From an uncultured Paracoccaceae bacterium (GTDB lineage Bacteria > Pseudomonadota > Alphaproteobacteria > Rhodobacterales > Rhodobacteraceae): a stretch of 64,000 nucleotides of DNA. The DNA lies in NCBI GenBank assembly GCA_947500055.1, contig CANMQO010000002.1, positions 62,001-126,000 of the forward strand, in the 5' to 3' direction. The notes under the pieces were generated by a model that was given only the letters and a program-made list of their open reading frames with translations, did not search any database and was not told where the DNA came from. Each line of letters opens with the position of its first letter. Within the stretch, counting starts at the first letter, position 1. Shown piece by piece: positions 12,943 through 62,194 of the stretch. Position numbers and translations under genes: made by a program.

Positions 12943-14460
12943 GATGTTAAAAGTTGCCCGAATTTGGGCATCCTGCGCGTCGCTCAGATAGGTTGGGTGA
13001 TGGCCGTCCAACACCGCGCGCGCCTTGCGCTTTGCAACGGCCCAGGCATCCTTACCACCCTTTTGCGCCCATGTTCTGGGCTCATCCCGATCAGCTAATG
13101 TCGGATAGAAATAGTCGCGCTCCATCGATTGCAACGTATGCGACCCACCCAGAAAATGGCCGTCGCCCAGCACCGCCTCGAAAATCGCATCATATGCCAG
13201 ATTGGCGTCGTCAACCTCGACCCCACGCAACACGCGATAGGTATGGGAATGCATCTCATCGTCCAGAATGAAGGCCTCGAAACTCGCACCCAATAATGAT
13301 GCAGTCATGCCAGAGCTTTCATAAATCAGATTGCCACCGGCAAGGGCCGCAGCGAGTGAGGTCAGACCCTTCTCCATACCGTATTGGGCATCCAGCGCCT
13401 TGGCATCGGTCATCGCACAGGCAACGCCGGATGGCAGCCCCAGCCAGTTCGACAGCTGCGCCGACGCGGCATTCAACACGGCTGTTTCGCCACTGCCGCC
13501 CGCGAAGGCACCAGTGCGCAGATCAATAACCAGTGGCCAATTGGAAAACACCATGGGAAAGCCGGGCCTGATGGCATGCACCATGACAAGGCTGGCAAGC
13601 GTTTCGGCCAGTGATTGCGCCAAAAACCCGGCAAGGGTGGCAGGTGCAGTGGCCCCGGCCTGTGCGGCGGTAATGCATGAAATCGGGATGTTGTGGCGAA
13701 TGCAGGCATAAACGACCTCCACCGCGTCAGCGCCAAATCGCATCGGCGAAATCACCGGGCTGATATGTGCCTTCATGAACGGGCGCTTGGAAAACGCGCC
13801 CTCGCCCCCGGCGGCGACATCCAGCATCTGCACAATCGGGGCCACGTGATCGGCAATGGTAAAGGCGGTGGCGGTTGGCTTGGTCGTGTTCTTGATCAGC
13901 GCGTAGGCAGTGTTGACATCCAGCGCAAAAATGTCCGGCACATCCGTCGCGATGCAGCAGCGGGTAAACCAACTGACATTGGCCAGCGTGTCCTGAAGGC
14001 GGGCAAAATCGTGCAGATCTGCAAGGGTGGACGGGCGATATAGACCCGTGTCGAGATCAAGGGTCTGCACAGCGGCACCACCCGTGCCAAAATGCACGCG
14101 GTTGCCCCCGACCTCGATTGACCTGGCATCATCACGCCCATGCAATGTGAACGTTTTTGCAGCACCATCAATCGCATCCTCCACCAACGACGCAGGAAAC
14201 AGAACGCGGCCCGCGCCGTTCTCTCTGGCCCCGGCATGTAAAAGATCAGCCAGCAAAGGTGGCGGCACCTCTCCCATGCCAAGATTTTCCAACAAATCCA
14301 ATGCGGTGTGGTAAATCGCGCGAATCTCGGCATCGGTTAGCGGTTTGTATTGGCCACCAATCTGGCCGGGCGGGCAAGGATCAATGACAGGCTTGGCCGC
14401 CCGTTGCGCCAGCCGCCCGGCGCGCCCCGCTCCTTTTGTTCGCCGCCCCGCCATCTGCAC
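12937..14460 (-). CDS. MttB-family (trimethylamine/betaine) methyltransferase, non-pyrrolysine
   Basis: 507 residues, full length for the family, with no in-frame amber codon, so it is a non-pyrrolysine member. That branch includes glycine-betaine and related quaternary-amine:corrinoid methyltransferases. Family-like segments: LDLLENLGMGEVPP, RVHFGTGGAAVQTLDLDTG, KPFMKAHISPVISPM-like stretch at about 250 and GAFAGGSGETAVLNAASAQL at about 345. No cognate corrinoid protein or reductive activator is visible nearby. The start could be either ATG at 14460 or 14454. It diverges from the flavoprotein gene, with a 181-bp gap containing the putative LysR boxes. Confidence 0.85.
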   Translation of the reverse strand: MQMAGRRTKGAGRAGRLAQRAAKPVIDPCPPGQIGGQYKPLTDAEIRAIYHTALDLLENLGMGEVPPPLLADLLHAGARENGAGRVLFPASLVEDAIDGAAKTFTLHGRDDARSIEVGGNRVHFGTGGAAVQTLDLDTGLYRPSTLADLHDFARLQDTLANVSWFTRCCIATDVPDIFALDVNTAYALIKNTTKPTATAFTIADHVAPIVQMLDVAAGGEGAFSKRPFMKAHISPVISPMRFGADAVEVVYACIRHNIPISCITAAQAGATAPATLAGFLAQSLAETLASLVMVHAIRPGFPMVFSNWPLVIDLRTGAFAGGSGETAVLNAASAQLSNWLGLPSGVACAMTDAKALDAQYGMEKGLTSLAAALAGGNLIYESSGMTASLLGASFEAFILDDEMHSHTYRVLRGVEVDDANLAYDAIFEAVLGDGHFLGGSHTLQSMERDYFYPTLADRDEPRTWAQKGGKDAWAVAKRKARAVLDGHHPTYLSDAQDAQIRATFNIL

Positions 14461-27501: not shown

Positions 27502-29013
27502 TCAGTCGCCCTCAGCCACACCGCCGGCACGATATTTCGCGCGCCTTGCGCGGTAGCTGGGCAAGACCACCAGAATGGCCGCAATGACCAGCAGACCCAA
27601 TGTCATGGGGCGCTGCCAGATGAACCCGATGCCATCATATAGCTGCATGGACCGGGCGAAATTGTCTTCCATCATACCGCCCAGAATGAACCCGATCAGC
27701 AATGGGGCCAGCGGATAGTCTGCGAATTTCAATGCCGTGGCACAGATGCCAAAACCAACCAGCAACAGCAGTTCGGTCGCATTGTTCTGCCCGATATAAG
27801 CACCCATCAATGTAAAAAATAAAATGAACGGGATCAGATAGTTACGTGGAACTGCCAGCACCTTGGCGATATATGGGATCAGCGGCAGATTGAGGATCAG
27901 CAAAACCAGATTGCCAATGAACATCGACATGATGACAGCCCAGAAAATCTGCGGCTCATCAATCATCAGACGCGGACCCGGGGTCACATTCAGGGCAATC
28001 AGCGCGCCCAGCAATATCGCCGTCGTACCGGACCCGGGAATACCAAGTGTCAGCAATGGCACGAATGATCCTGTGCAGGCCGCATTATTGGCGGTTTCCG
28101 GGGCAGCCAAACCCTTGATCGAGCCTTTGCCAAACTCCTCCTGTTCTTCCTTGGGGGCGATGTTACGCTCCACAGCATAACCAAGGAAGCTGGCAATCGT
28201 GGCCCCGGCGCCCGGAAGCACACCGATAAAGAACCCCTGCAACGACTGACGCCCGATGACCGGCGCAATCGCCCTGGCCTCGGCCCCAGTGATCCGCAGG
28301 TCCTTGATTTCACCATCGTCACCCTTCAGGTCCTTGGGCTTGAGCACAAGAAACAAAGCCTCTGGCAAGGCAAACATGGCCATGGCGAGCGTGATGAAGC
28401 CAAAGCCTGATTGCAGATCCATGATCCCCATGGTGAAACGCGGCAGGTTGAACAATGCCCCCTCGCCCACCGTGGCCATGATCAAGCCCAGAACGGTCAT
28501 GATCATCGCCTTGGCAACCTGACCGGTGCCAGCAAAGGCCGCAATGGCCGACAATCCAACAACCATCAGGGCGAAATACTCGGCCGAGTGGAATAATAGG
28601 GCCACCGAAGACAAGGCAGGCGCGAAGACCATCAACAGGATGGCGCCAATGGTGCCGCCGGCGAAGCTGGCAATCGCGGCGATGGTCAGCGCCTTGCCGG
28701 CCTTGCCCTGTTGGGCCATCGGATAGCCGTCAAAACTGGAGGCAACAGTGCCTGCGACCCCCGGCGCATTCAGCAGGATGGACGAGGTCGAACCACCAAA
28801 GATTGCGCCGTAATAGACGCCCGCCAGCAGGATAAGCGCGGCAGAGGGATCACCCATCGAAATCGCAACAGGGATCATGATCGCGATGATCGACATCGGC
28901 CCAAGTCCCGGAAGCATCCCGATAAACGTGCCAATCAGACAACCGCCGATCACCATCAACAGGTTCTGAACGGAAAATGCCGTTTGCAGGCCGATCAGTA
29001 ATCCTTCAAGCAT
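27502..29013 (-). CDS. tctA: Tripartite tricarboxylate transporter, large membrane subunit
   Basis: 503 residues from the ATG at 29013 (MLEGLLIGLQTAFSV), chosen because the frame further up lies inside tctB. About 11-12 membrane segments. TctA signatures: GMLPGLGPMSIIAIMIP (about 30-46), LLNAPGVAGTVASSFDGYPMA (about 80-100) and GVLPGAGATIASFLGYAVE (about 262-280). It is the main translocation subunit, using the ion gradient to import carboxylates delivered by TctC. The start is 1 nt after the tctB stop. Confidence 0.93.
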   Translation of the reverse strand: MLEGLLIGLQTAFSVQNLLMVIGGCLIGTFIGMLPGLGPMSIIAIMIPVAISMGDPSAALILLAGVYYGAIFGGSTSSILLNAPGVAGTVASSFDGYPMAQQGKAGKALTIAAIASFAGGTIGAILLMVFAPALSSVALLFHSAEYFALMVVGLSAIAAFAGTGQVAKAMIMTVLGLIMATVGEGALFNLPRFTMGIMDLQSGFGFITLAMAMFALPEALFLVLKPKDLKGDDGEIKDLRITGAEARAIAPVIGRQSLQGFFIGVLPGAGATIASFLGYAVERNIAPKEEQEEFGKGSIKGLAAPETANNAACTGSFVPLLTLGIPGSGTTAILLGALIALNVTPGPRLMIDEPQIFWAVIMSMFIGNLVLLILNLPLIPYIAKVLAVPRNYLIPFILFFTLMGAYIGQNNATELLLLVGFGICATALKFADYPLAPLLIGFILGGMMEDNFARSMQLYDGIGFIWQRPMTLGLLVIAAILVVLPSYRARRAKYRAGGVAEGD

Positions 29014-49554: not shown

Positions 49555-49868
49555 TGCTGGAACTGCGACCAAACTGCGAATGGTGCGACAAGGACCTGCC
49601 ACCGAATGCGGTAGATGCGCGGATCTGCAGCTATGAATGCACATATTGCGCCGATTGCGTGGAAACCGTCCTGCAAAATGTCTGCCCAACCTGCGGCGGC
49701 GGGTTTGCGCAGCGTCCGATCCGACCAACAAAAGCCTATCACCAGACGCCGCAATTGGGCTTGGGCAACCAACCCGCCAGCGCCAATCGGGTACACTCCC
49801 GCTGGTCGGATGAACAGGTCGCGGCAATGGTGGCACGGCTCAAGAGCATAGCGCCAACTGATCGCTAA
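49554..49868 (+). CDS. DUF1272-type cysteine-rich protein
   Basis: 104 residues. The N-terminal 60 residues carry eight Cys in pairs (NCEWCDKDLPP, ICSYECTYCADCVE, NVCPTCGGGF), which should bind two zinc ions, followed by QRPIRP, the DUF1272 signature. The C-terminal part is variable. Function unknown. Start and stop overlap (TAATG) with the amidohydrolase, so the two are co-translated. Ends overlap the convergent gene by 4 nt. Confidence 0.82.
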   Translation: MLELRPNCEWCDKDLPPNAVDARICSYECTYCADCVETVLQNVCPTCGGGFAQRPIRPTKAYHQTPQLGLGNQPASANRVHSRWSDEQVAAMVARLKSIAPTDR

Positions 49869-50830
49869 AAATCAAGACCAGATGAGGGATCGCTCAGGTC
49901 AAACTCCAGGGATGGCGGCGCACCACAAACCTCGGCCAGATTTGTGCGATAGGACGACTCCAGTGGCAGGGTCAGGCGGTCGCCATCCCCGACCTGCATA
50001 TGGATCGGCGTATGGGACATCGGCACATCATCATAGGGGTCCGGGTCGACCTCCCCGGCACGCATATCCCGATATGTATCGACCGGCCCCGTGGCGGTCT
50101 GCTGCACCTGATGCAAGCGGATTGGGTAATTCTGGATCATCCAACGCCGAAACGCAGCGGGAGAGCTGGCGCGGACATTGCGCAACTGAAACCTTGTCTG
50201 CGCCTGCCGTTGAAACCGGAACCCCACATGGCCGCCACCGCCCACCTGCCAGTGGTACCTGTTGGTTCCGCTGTAATGCGTGGCGTAGTCGTAATTGGGA
50301 TTGTTCGTATTGGCGTCGCAGGTCGTATAGGCGTTGTAGATGACAGGCGCCCCGACACAGCGGGCGCCAAAAAATCGCTGGATCGCCCGCATGGTCGGGA
50401 CTTCCGCCCCAACGCGACAGCCGCGAATTTCGACCCGGTCGAGCGATTTGGCCTGTGCGGCGCGCATCTTGCCGCGCAATCTGGCAATCGCAGCTTCGGG
50501 AACGGATAGCGGTTGCGCAATAGCAGCATCATCGTCCGTCCCGGACAACATATTCAGCGCCTGTGCGCTTGCCTTGCGGGCGTGGCGATGAACCAGCGGG
50601 AAAATCAGGCCACCCGTATTGCCGTGGCAGACAATCACAATTGTACCGCCCTCGCCGCTCGATTGACCCGCAATCTGGTCAAGAACAGCTTCCATCGTGA
50701 ATTGCGCAATGGGGAAGACGGACCCAAGCCCCAAGCGACCGCTTGCCCCTGTTTGTTCCCAACTGCACATGTTGTAATATCGGCCCGCCGCCGGATGGGC
50801 GTCATGATCTGTCACGACAATACTGGACAT
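49865..50830 (-). CDS. Unrecognised protein with caspase-like (clan CD) His-Gly and Gly-Cys motifs
   Basis: 321 residues from the ATG at 50830 (AGAGGAGAATTTCAATC upstream); the frame extends to 50950, but without a start of similar quality. I do not recognise the family. Two segments stand out: GGTIVIVCHGNTGG (61-74), a hydrophobic strand ending in His69-Gly, and DRVEIRGCRVGAEVP (131-145), a strand ending in Cys138. Caspase-fold peptidases (clan CD), CHAT and DUF4347 proteins have this order and spacing. The second half (180-321) is rich in Tyr, Asn and Gly and predicted irregular. No signal peptide and no target gene nearby. A peptidase role is a hypothesis. Confidence 0.6.
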   Translation of the reverse strand: MSSIVVTDHDAHPAAGRYYNMCSWEQTGASGRLGLGSVFPIAQFTMEAVLDQIAGQSSGEGGTIVIVCHGNTGGLIFPLVHRHARKASAQALNMLSGTDDDAAIAQPLSVPEAAIARLRGKMRAAQAKSLDRVEIRGCRVGAEVPTMRAIQRFFGARCVGAPVIYNAYTTCDANTNNPNYDYATHYSGTNRYHWQVGGGGHVGFRFQRQAQTRFQLRNVRASSPAAFRRWMIQNYPIRLHQVQQTATGPVDTYRDMRAGEVDPDPYDDVPMSHTPIHMQVGDGDRLTLPLESSYRTNLAEVCGAPPSLEFDLSDPSSGLDF

Positions 50831-50956
50831 GATTGAAATTCTCCTCTGGCTAAAATCAGGGCAGACGGCGTGTTTCAAAAAGTCGTTGCACAAATCAGCG
50901 CATGCCGCCGGTTGGGTAATATACCCCACCATAACACAAATCCGCCGCACGCCCTA

Positions 50957-51064
50957 TTAACCCCGCAAAATGCGGTCACAGGGTCCGACGTTTTGCCGAC
51001 GCCACGCCGACGCTTTGCCGACCGCAGATTTCCCAGAAAAAGAAGGCGTTAACCAATGATTCGC
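50957..51064 (+). repeat. Phased CCGAC intergenic element, copy A
   Basis: 108 bp starting TTAAC and ending ATGATTCGC. Four CCGAC cores begin at offsets 29, 40, 51 and 62 (exact 11-bp period; unit close to CCGACGYTTTG). It aligns without gaps to copy B at 61350-61457, sharing TTAAC, GGTCCGAC, the four cores, GATTT, CAG and the terminal TTAAC/ATGATTCGC block. It lies between the ABC-F 3' end and the start of the caspase-like gene (127 nt from that start). Function unknown. Confidence 0.7.
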
Positions 51065-58387: not shown

Positions 58388-58464
58388 GGGTCCGAGGCCC
58401 AGAAATCCGGGTGTGCCGCCAAGCCGGGCACCTGAAAGCAGGGCGCTTAACAAAGGAGAGACCC

Positions 58465-61077
58465 ATGAACTTGGACAAGTTCACAGAGCGGTCGCGCGGA
58501 TTCGTACAAGCCGCCCAGACCATCGCAATGCGCGAGAACCACCAACGATTCGCCCCCGAACACCTGCTCAAGGCGCTCATGGATGACGAGGAAGGACTCG
58601 CATCCAACCTGATCACCCGCGCAGGCGGCAATGCCCCTGCTGTGATGGGCGCGGTAGAGGCCGCATTGGCCAAGCAGCCCAAAGTAACCGGCGACGCCGC
58701 CCAGGTCTATCTGGACAACACAACCGCCAAGGTCATCGATGAGGCCGAACAGATCGCCAAGAAGGCGGGCGACAGCTTTGTGCCGGTGGAACGGCTGCTG
58801 ACCGCATTGGCCGTGGTCAAATCCAAGGCCAAGGACGCGCTGGATGCAGGCGGCGTGACGGCCAAGGCGCTGAACGCCGCGATCAATGACATCCGCAAAG
58901 GCCGCACCGCCGATAGCGCGACGGCAGAGGATAGTTTTGAGGCGCTGGCTAAATATGCCCGCGACCTGACCGAAGCGGCCGAGCAAGGCAAGATCGACCC
59001 GATCATTGGCCGGGACGAGGAAATTCGTCGCGCCATGCAGGTGCTGTCCCGCCGGACCAAGAATAACCCGGTGCTGATTGGCGAACCCGGCGTGGGTAAA
59101 ACAGCCATCGCCGAAGGGCTGGCCCTGCGCATCGTCAATGGCGATGTGCCGGAATCCTTACGCAACAAAAAACTCATGTCGCTTGATATGGGGGCGATGA
59201 TTGCTGGCGCGAAATACCGCGGCGAGTTTGAGGAACGGTTGAAAGCTGTGCTCAAGGAAATCGAATCCGCCGCCGGTGAAATCATCATGTTCATCGACGA
59301 AATGCACACGCTGGTTGGCGCTGGCGCGTCCGAAGGCGCGATGGATGCGGCCAACTTGATCAAACCGGCACTGGCGCGGGGTGAGTTGCATTGCGTCGGG
59401 GCCACGACCCTGAACGAATACCGCAAATATGTGGAAAAAGACGCGGCCCTTGCCCGCCGGTTCCAACCGCTGATGGTTGAGGAACCAACCGTGACCGATA
59501 CGGTCAGCATCCTGCGCGGGATCAAGGAAAAATACGAACTGCACCACGGCGTGCGGATTTCCGACAGCGCCTTGGTCGCTGCGGCGACGCTCTCGCATCG
59601 CTACATCACAGACCGGTTCCTGCCCGACAAAGCCATCGACCTGATGGACGAGGCCGCCAGCCGTCTGCGCATGGAAGTCGACAGCAAGCCCGAAGAACTG
59701 GACGCGCTCGACCGTCAGATCCTGCAACTCCAGATCGAATCCGAGGCGCTGAAGAAAGAGGATGACAAAGCCTCCAAGGACCGGCTTGAAAAGCTGGAAA
59801 AGGAACTGGCCGACCTCAATGATCGCGCGTCCGAAATGGCGGCGAAATGGCAGGCCGAACGCGACAAGCTGGAAGGCACACGCGAGGTCAAGGAAAAGCT
59901 CGACCGCGCCCGCGCCGATCTGGATATCGCCAAGCGTGAGGGCAATCTGGCGAAAGCAGGGGAGCTGTCCTATGGCGTGATCCCTGAGCTTGAACGCAAG
60001 CTGGCCGAGGCCGAAGAAAACGACGACCTGATGGTTGAAGAGGCCGTGCGCCCCGAACAAATCGCCGAAGTGGTCGAACGCTGGACAGGCATCCCGACCT
60101 CCAAAATGCTGGAAGGGGAGCGTGAAAAGCTGCTGCGTATGGAAGATGAGCTTGGCAAGCGGGTGATCGGCCAGAAAACCGCCGTGACCTCAGTCGCCAA
60201 TGCCGTCCGCCGCGCCCGCGCGGGGCTGAATGACGAAAACCGGCCATTGGGTTCCTTCCTGTTTCTGGGGCCAACCGGTGTGGGTAAAACGGAACTGACC
60301 AAGGCGGTTGCCGAATACCTCTTTGATGATGACAACGCGATGGTCCGCATCGACATGTCGGAGTTTATGGAGAAACACGCGGTCGCCCGTCTGATCGGCG
60401 CGCCTCCAGGCTATGTCGGCTACGATGAAGGCGGCGTGCTGACGGAAGCTGTGCGGCGGCGCCCTTATCAGGTCGTCCTGTTCGACGAGGTCGAAAAGGC
60501 ACACCCGGATGTGTTCAACGTGCTGTTGCAGGTGCTTGATGATGGGGTGCTCACCGATGGTCAGGGCCGCACCGTGGACTTCAAGCAAACGCTGATCATC
60601 CTGACCAGCAACCTTGGGGCGCAGGCATTGAGCCAGCTGCCCGATGGGGCCGATGCGTCAGAGGCCAAGCGCGACGTGATGGATGCGGTCCGCGCCCATT
60701 TCCGGCCCGAATTCCTCAACCGGCTGGACGAAACCGTGATCTTCGACAGGCTTGCGCGCGAAGACATGGCCGGGATCGTCACGATCCAGCTCAAGCGGTT
60801 GGAAAAACGGTTGGCCGGGCGCAACATCCAGATCGATCTGGATGAGCCGGCGCTGAAATGGTTGGCCGATGAAGGCTACGATCCGGTCTTCGGGGCACGG
60901 CCGCTCAAGCGGGTGATCCAGCGGGCGTTGCAGGATCAACTGGCCGAAATGATCCTGGCCGGCGACGTGATGGACGGCGACACAATCACCGTCAGCGCTG
61001 GAGCCGACGGGCTGCTTGTGGGCGACAGGTTGTCAGCATCCAACAGACCAAGACCAGACGACGCGGTCGTACACTGA
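58465..61077 (+). CDS. clpB: ATP-dependent disaggregase ClpB
   Basis: 870 residues from the ATG at 58465 (AAAGGAGAG upstream). The hexameric AAA+ chaperone threads aggregated proteins together with DnaK. Clp-N domain about 1-150 ([20 protein letters not shown]); NBD1 with Walker [10 protein letters not shown] and [20 protein letters not shown]; a long M-domain coiled coil (about 405-525); NBD2 with Walker [14 protein letters not shown] and [21 protein letters not shown]-terminal domain to 870. No ClpP-loop (IGL) is evident. Heat-shock regulated by the RpoH promoter upstream. Confidence 0.97.
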
Positions 61078-61105: not shown

Positions 61106-61603
61106 CGTTTCACGGATTTTGGACCGCCACCCCCGACCGGAAGGGTCCGGTTTCAGTTTGAACCGCCCGATGCGGCATTTTGGGCGCGCGACGAATGGGC
61201 GCGTGCGCAGCCTCCCGATTGCCCTTTTCCCAGAAATGCAGGCTCCACCCATCCGCCCGACAAAGCGTGGAATGCCTGCTGAGGGACCCGTTGTCCAAAC
61301 CATGGCTCAAAGGGTTAACGGCACATTCAGATTTGCAGCGCGCGCACCCTTAACGGGGGCGTTCCAAGGTTTGGGGTCCGACAAAAGGCCGACGTTTTGC
61401 CGACGCATTGCCGACAGCCGATTTTACAGGATTTCCTCATATTAACTTATGATTCGCGGGATTTTGCATTTATCCGCTGTTGCGCTGCCTTTCCCCGACC
61501 ACCGAACGTTGCGCTCTTGTACAGACCCCCGCTCACAATCATACCGCATTCAGGCCCCAAAATGATCGCATCACGCGGCTTATGTGGCGCATAAATAGAC
61601 CGG
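61106..61603. other. About 500-bp intergenic region holding phased element copy B
   Basis: No gene recognised on either strand between the clpB terminator and the DUF2585 gene. Open frames here have no ribosome sites or family likeness. The only structured part seen is the 108-bp CCGAC element (61350-61457). The promoter of the DUF2585 gene should lie in the final 150 bp, but no clear pair was found. Confidence 0.5.
61350..61457 (+). repeat. Phased CCGAC intergenic element, copy B
   Basis: 108 bp from TTAAC to ATGATTCGC, same length and same orientation on the + strand as copy A at 50957-51064. Four CCGAC cores at offsets 29, 40, 51 and 62 (units CCGACAAAAGG, CCGACGTTTTG, CCGACGCATTG, CCGAC). 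The end block TTAAC-xx-ATGATTCGC contains a GANTC site (CcrM type) and a TTAAC half-site like those of CtrA. It lies about 150 nt before the DUF2585 gene. Confidence 0.7.
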
Positions 61604-62194
61604 ATGCGATATATGAAGACCGATAGATTGCTTTACCTGTTTGCCCTTCTCGGCGTGCCGCTGATCGGCGGAACCCTTTATCTCTGGGGTCAGCCACTGA
61701 TCTGCACCTGCGGGAATGTGAAGCTTTGGGTCGGGTCGGTCTTTGACAGCGGCAATTCGCAACACATCGCCGACTGGTACACGCTCAGCCATATTCTGCA
61801 CGGTGTGTTGATCGCGCTTCTCGGACGGTTGCTGTTTCCCAAGGTCGGGTTTGGGGGGCTGTTTCTAGTCGCTATCGTTACCGGCATCGGATGGGAAATT
61901 ATCGAACATACGGATTTCGTCCTCAACGCGTTCCGCTCCACCACGATCAACGCAGGCTACCATGGTGATAGTGTGCTGAACGCTGTTGCCGACTATATCT
62001 GGATGATGGGCGGGTTTTTTGCGGCCTATGCAATGCGGACATTGCATGTGATTGGTGCCGTTGCTGTGCTGGAATTGTCTGCCGCTTTCATCGCCCGTGA
62101 CAGCCTCGCGCTCAGCACCTTGATGCTGCTTTATCCGGTTGACGCGGTGGAAGACTGGCAGCAGGAACTGAACCCCAACCGGGTCGACGCCTGA
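61604..62194 (+). CDS. DUF2585 (UPF0314-type) membrane protein
   Basis: 196 residues (or 193 from the ATG at 61613). Membrane segments about 10-28, 62-80, 84-102, 128-150 and 152-172. Family-type stretches: GQPLICTCGNVKLWVGSVFD, NSQHIADWYTLSHILHG, GIGWEIIEHTDFVLNAFR and YHGDSVLNAVADYIWM, with conserved His, Asp and Glu facing a likely active or metal site in the membrane. Function unknown. Monocistronic. Confidence 0.82.
   Translation: MRYMKTDRLLYLFALLGVPLIGGTLYLWGQPLICTCGNVKLWVGSVFDSGNSQHIADWYTLSHILHGVLIALLGRLLFPKVGFGGLFLVAIVTGIGWEIIEHTDFVLNAFRSTTINAGYHGDSVLNAVADYIWMMGGFFAAYAMRTLHVIGAVAVLELSAAFIARDSLALSTLMLLYPVDAVEDWQQELNPNRVDA

Follow-up and report, generated by a model that had tools for sequence, protein, structure and literature searches.

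An intergenic family of 11-bp-phased CCGAC arrays oriented with replication in Rhodobacteraceae: a candidate docking site for an oligomeric protein

Introduction

Two 108-bp intergenic elements in a 64,000-nucleotide stretch of DNA from an uncultured Paracoccaceae bacterium (the whole stretch analyzed here, called the window) each carry four CCGAC cores at an 11-bp period. What kind of element is this, and what could keep its cores in phase? The first-pass annotation proposed selection for protein binding on one DNA face, with conserved cores and drifted spacers. Here we follow the elements through their own genome, a congener, and other members of the family.

Results

In both elements the cores lie in the phase first described, starting at 50985, 50996, 51007, and 51018 in element 1 and at 61378, 61389, 61400, and 61411 in element 2. 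The leading TTAAC (starts 50957 and 61350) and the trailing TTAAC-N2-ATGATTCGC (51049–51064 and 61442–61457) are likewise in place. The original coordinates and flank words are thus right, but the 108-bp limits are somewhat narrow, as conserved columns reach from roughly –63 to +40 relative to the array. The parts and neighbors of the two elements are as follows.

50945–50961, + strand: element 1, 5′ module CCGCACGC-N4-TTAAC (alignment of 58 elements of this genome)
50980–50984, + strand: element 1, array leader AGGGT (consensus GGGGT at –5 to –1, column information 0.65–2.0 bits)
50985–51022, + strand: element 1, phased array of four CCGAC with spacers GTTTTG, GCCACG, and GCTTTG
51023–51064, + strand: element 1, 3′ module CGCAGATTT, TTAAC at 51049–51053, TGATTCGC, and GANTC at 51058–51062
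49865–50950, – strand: neighbor of element 1, ORF without a Pfam family; its first start overlaps the element's edge, and a later start gives 277 aa
51123–52637, – strand: other neighbor of element 1, ABC-F-like protein (ORF) in which Pfam marks ABC_tran in two stretches, 3′ end towards the element
61315–61329, + strand: element 2, CtrA-like box TTAA-N7-TTCA at –63
61336–61354, + strand: element 2, 5′ module CAGCGCGCGC-N-TTAAC (alignment)
61373–61377, + strand: element 2, array leader GGGGT
61378–61415, + strand: element 2, phased array of four CCGAC with spacers AAAAGG, GTTTTG, and GCATTG
61416–61457, + strand: element 2, 3′ module AGCCGATTTT, TTAAC at 61442–61446, TGATTCGC, and GANTC at 61451–61455
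58411–61077, + strand: neighbor of element 2, presumably a ClpB-like ATPase, a label taken from the ORF translation
61604–62194, + strand: other neighbor of element 2, DUF2585 protein (ORF, Pfam)

Read from its sequence, the element 1 copy lacks the CtrA-like TTAA-N7-TTNA box. Separately, two ACCG-NN-CGGT palindromes (51082 and 51109) lie close behind element 1; the word has a density of about 94 per Mb across the window, versus 50–60 per Mb in two other sampled genera. Elsewhere in the window, Rfam gives a strong match to a Cis8 sRNA of the Ruegeria type (27851–27978, +) and one barely above threshold (42.3 versus 38 bits) to PYLIS_3, the pyrrolysine insertion element of mttB (13311–13413, –).

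Both copies are members of an intergenic, non-palindromic repeat-array family, about 70 strong, around the chromosome. Across the genome the four-core pattern gives 60 matches, two of which overlap, leaving 59 arrays; the reversed pattern gives none, and base composition predicts 4e-5. The pattern is thus far commoner than chance, and a longer ordinary duplication is ruled out by the flanks of the two copies, which align poorly outside the shared motifs. A sequence-only profile built from 58 elements finds 73 places in the genome at E ≤0.01, the last one weak. Within the window, the two elements are the only exact three-core matches; with up to three mismatches there are 11 matches versus 3.1 expected, a number reached by 0 of 100 shuffles. 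A scan of the window for exact 5-mers of any sequence that recur three times with a period of 8–14 gave the two elements as the only cases at period 11, and two further cases at period 12.

All 59 exact arrays, the two from the window among them, were aligned with their flanks, and column statistics were taken on 58. The alignment gives CACCGCGCGC-N-TTAA at about –40 to –25 (5′ module consensus CACCGCRCGC-N-TTAAY over the 58 elements), then GGGGT directly before the array, four CCGAC at 11 bp, and downstream AGC-N2-ATTT, AAA, TTAAC at about +27, and TGATTCG at about +36. The most frequent spacers are GTTTTG (38/58) at position 1, GCATCG (18/58) at position 2, and GCTTTG (34/58) at position 3; the second is the most variable. 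The notion of conserved cores amid drifted spacers therefore holds for the cores and their phase but not as simple drift, since the spacers are position-specific words. With spacers 1 and 3 alike and spacer 2 variable, the array has the look of two bound pairs of sites.

Motifs are enriched around the arrays, at fixed distances. TTAA occurs at –36 to –19 in 42/59 elements versus 0/59 far windows, and GANTC at +26 to +60 in 38/59 versus 5/59. The TTAA-N7-TTNA box, which resembles the CtrA consensus, lies within –110 to –20 in 22/59 elements (18 exactly at –63) versus 0/59 far windows, and in the congener in 18/60 versus 0/60. The outer flank modules are missing from several copies that sit in tight gene gaps and from another genus, G035, where the array is preceded by CACCGYGCGGAGGTGC or other leaders.

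Mapping against genes, as the first-pass annotation had suggested, places the arrays between genes and away from divergent gaps. None of the exact arrays falls within a gene as called by a simple codon-based ORF model. The array gaps divide into 21 and 17 co-directional, 16 convergent, and 6 divergent; a single gap is known to be assigned wrongly, as the model overlooked a gene for a REP-associated tyrosine transposase (RAYT). Set against element-free gaps of at least 150 bp in these loci, divergent gaps are under-represented (6/54 versus 26/64, p 4e-4), and the excess of convergent gaps is not significant (14/54 versus 8/64, p 0.10). The 20 proteins examined, which are encoded in the window or next to selected conserved sites, belong by Pfam to mixed families, including DprA, RecO, GyrB, YqeY, ETF-QO, Pth, and DUF2585; 3 of the 20 have no family.

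The wider search first envisaged in other Rhodobacteraceae found the four-core pattern in 25/295 genomes of the family. The three-core pattern occurs in 42/296, 20 of them with high copy (seven or more matches); one further genome with seven matches (G132) was set aside from this group, its matches being perfect tandem repeats. Most sampled genera of the family are without the motif. The reversed three-core control gives 0–3 matches per genome, except for 74 in genus G211, which has no CCGAC array and instead 33 matches of a CAGCC array in the same 11-bp phase (e.g. L361 and L363–L388). Across the Alphaproteobacteria, 4/241 genomes carry the four-core pattern, all four in Rhodobacteraceae, and none of 237 from other families does. 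A flank-anchored pattern in GTDB matched at least 111 stretches; among those listed, 108 are from Rhodobacteraceae, part of them presumably so, by genus or family name, and three are of Bacteroidetes type. Two genera without high copy were sampled over 300 kb: G010 has a single CCGAC triple, which lacks the flank motifs, and G003 has none.

Origin from a plasmid or phage was considered and rejected. An element of the source genome had no match in PLSDB, and a Roseobacter-type element gave 40 weak plasmid records, with no recognized Rhodobacteraceae genus by first word, and 10 weak phage records, in each case by BLAST, which is weak for such queries. Viral contigs contain at least 120 stretches with the array pattern; of 61 checked for flank motifs only, none has them. 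No description of the element was found in the open-access literature.

We took as polarity the sign of local GC skew on the CCGAC strand, scoring loci of the source genome with the element excluded. The CCGAC strand is the C-rich one (negative GC skew) in 43/59 of these loci (42/57 in a second count), at 49/60 congener sites, and in 86/108 listed GTDB Rhodobacteraceae loci, from which the three non-family loci were removed and in which some genomes are present several times. It is also C-rich in 19/20 twenty-kb windows of G035 (20 chosen of its 32 sites), 9/9 in Roseovarius CCMP836, and 8/8 in Salinihabitans, and the CAGCC variant of G211 lies on the C-rich strand at 22/27 loci (26 distinct arrays). 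The share expected from composition, through the element's own C excess, is 0.56–0.62. The share is 6/11 loci in CANKYO, and polarity is not clear in the sponge symbiont Ca. Rhodobacter lobularis (G325; 19/30 genome sites, 2/6 LFTY loci). The array strand shows no bias towards gene direction (29/57). At third codon positions, skew on the element strand is below zero whichever way the genes run (–0.076 and –0.059); it is thus replication, and not transcription, that the bias follows.

The first-pass annotation had also suggested mapping against origin and terminus. Orientation with replication is borne out through local skew, but two clean arcs are not seen in G035: its 32 arrays are spread over the chromosome, the best two-arc fit accounts for 25/32 (p 0.29), and there are 10 sign changes (p 0.06). 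Replication polarity in G035 thus rests on local skew.

Arrays in the source genome come about every 50 kb, with gaps more even than random (CV 0.71 versus 0.92 expected, p 0.007). The congener behaves likewise (CV 0.64 versus 0.95 expected, 0/3000 randomizations). In G035 the smallest gap, 22.6 kb, is unusually large (p 0.0016), and the CV is not significant (p 0.078); in G325 the arrays form tight clusters.

Position and polarity are conserved between congeners. Of the 59 loci, 38 align with a compared congener locus, and at least 37 sites, as curated pairs of filled sites, have a counterpart at the same junction with the same polarity, a lower bound because the 60 congener sites were drawn from 100 of 113 listed matches. 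The 37 do not include three secondary pairs, of which one has opposite polarity. Element 2 was missed in this set; its counterpart was later located at the same position before DUF2585 (L454), with one core reading CTGAC. Beyond the genus, DUF2585 was found in 7/30 genomes, and only the congener has an adjoining array in the compared stretch. Over all compared loci, matches on both flanks give 55 pairs of the same polarity and 0 inverted, and matches on one flank 84 and 16. Some junctions are common to genera with different spacer types, such as L063/L343 and L174 of Roseovarius.

At orthologous sites flank identity is 0.54–0.61, versus 0.31–0.39 at other places. For spacer 2 and core 4 taken together, likeness within species (0.65/0.62) exceeds that between species (0.53), a difference that 0/300 label swaps reach. 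To some degree, then, flanks appear to follow place, and spacer 2 and core 4 species. Species-typical words at fixed positions may be a sign that sites are copied from one another, something for which a static site has no need. Because the compared sites were selected by their cores, this set gives no measure of how well the cores are conserved between congeners. A compensating GTCTG/CAGAC pair considered in the congener was dropped, with only 7/14.

Discussion

We propose that the arrays are a replication-oriented docking site for a putative oligomeric protein with an architectural role, a reading to which we give a probability of roughly one half. The fixed 11-bp phase, kept with another core in G211, fits a protein lying along one DNA face, and the first-pass idea of such binding survives in this form: the phase of the 59 arrays and of the CAGCC genus agrees with it, binding itself is what we infer, and the drifted spacers once cited for it do not hold. 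A docking site is favored over a regulon, an RNA, or a mobile repeat by the combination of phased repeats that are dispersed, polar, evenly spaced, stable in position, and scarce in divergent gaps. Against it we count that no partner protein was found, the polarity and clusters of G325, the 6/11 of CANKYO, the arcs and CV of G035 and its missing modules, the patchy occurrence among genera, and the hint of copying given by spacer 2 and core 4.

Several other origins could be imagined. First, the arrays may belong to, or be left over from, a non-autonomous mobile repeat with a preference for inserting into one of the two template strands of the replication fork. The array would then consist of transposase sites, and the copies would have been fixed and partly homogenized after their spread. 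IS200/IS605 and Tn7-like elements insert with strand preference, which the bias here resembles; high copy in scattered genera, clusters in G325, and the fact that spacer 2 and core 4 are species-typical where sites are orthologous point the same way. We nevertheless regard this origin as doubtful, since position and polarity are kept in the curated congener pairs, at some junctions even between genera, and spacing is even. No inverted repeat of 10 or more bases was found in three elements examined, and neither, in those three, were MITE terminal inverted repeats; nor, with zero consensus pairs besides, was the 20–40-bp palindrome of the REP type.

Two RAYT genes do lie near elements of the source genome, at L051:1869–2351 (–) and L058:3003–3479 (+); the former is confirmed by NCBIfam NF047646 and kept in the congener (L335). 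Both are flanked by GTAG palindromes of their own, with a CCGAC element on one side only and not the same repeat inverted on both, and because of these palindromes REP/RAYT was rejected as the family of the arrays. A PF01797 search missed the congener's RAYT, being insensitive to the family, so absences by PF01797 mean little.

Second, the arrays could be bound by an OmpR/PhoB-type transcription regulator, as proteins of this type bind head-to-tail 11-bp repeats. The half-sites here are of that kind, a core plus 6 bp; spacers 1 and 3 are alike and spacer 2 varies, as if two dimers bound, and a CtrA-like box accompanies 22/59 elements. Yet divergent gaps are depleted, arrays often lie behind converging gene ends rather than in promoters of related genes, and polarity goes with replication and not with genes. 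Because of the divergent-gap depletion and the mixed functions of the 20 flanking proteins, a classical regulator is not supported, and we consider it improbable. Finally, a transcribed element (small RNA, terminator, or attenuator) would suit arrays near gene ends but was rejected and is very improbable, as RNAalifold predicts no base pair for the 58 sequences, neither strand folds better than shuffled sequence when taken singly (z 0.55 and –0.50), and Rfam has no match at the two elements.

Returning to the docking site, an oligomeric DNA-binding protein would bind three to five head-to-tail 11-bp sites, each a 5-bp core plus 6-bp spacer, along one helix face, and thereby form a directional nucleoprotein complex. 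With most arrays facing the same way relative to replication, such a complex could mark replichore direction and serve a process such as chromosome organization, segregation, or fork-coupled events. In this lineage, occupancy may depend on the cell cycle through the nearby CtrA-like and GANTC motifs, a putative link to CtrA and CcrM. A bolder version, which we think rather unlikely, is that of an undescribed class of one-way, evenly spaced signposts of replication direction, with occupancy timed by CtrA and GANTC (hemi)methylation and a core evolving with its putative partner (CCGAC in many genera, CAGCC in one).

If the docking site is real, marine Rhodobacteraceae would gain a chromosome-organizing system from evenly spaced, position-conserved, phased, and polar arrays. 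The array family would provide one clean bait with which to look for the protein, and its natural variants (the CAGCC core, genera without arrays) would allow tests of co-evolution between site and binder. Few lineages are known to have chromosomal sites that carry direction, and the known sites, KOPS among them, are short words.

The arrays share features with several known systems and match none in full. Like OmpR/PhoB-type sites they are 11-bp direct repeats with several half-sites on one face; unlike them they are dispersed, promoter-avoiding, and replication-oriented. REP/REPIN sequences with RAYT genes are similarly short, intergenic, high in copy, and patchy among genera (PMC2817692, PMC3733652), and RAYT genes are present in the source genome too; the arrays differ in being non-palindromic, without a GTAG/CGTC-tagged hairpin, the RAYT genes adjoining other (GTAG) palindromes. 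The TAACTGA repeats of Beggiatoaceae are also many intergenic sets of short direct repeats, patchy and with a putative binder, but these heptamers mostly lie just upstream of start codons, and the abstract of PMC4679880 describes no replication polarity. AIMS are strand-biased chromosomal octamers, and KOPS guide FtsK (PMC5993296); their abundance and bias rise towards the terminus, a rise not shown for the arrays, whose unit is no octamer but an 11-bp-phased set of four sites, about 38 bp with flank modules and some 70 per genome. The strand bias with replication is nevertheless common to both outside G325, and KOPS/AIMS resemble the arrays in being replication-oriented over the chromosome, read through their polarity, and clade-specific in sequence (PMC5993296).
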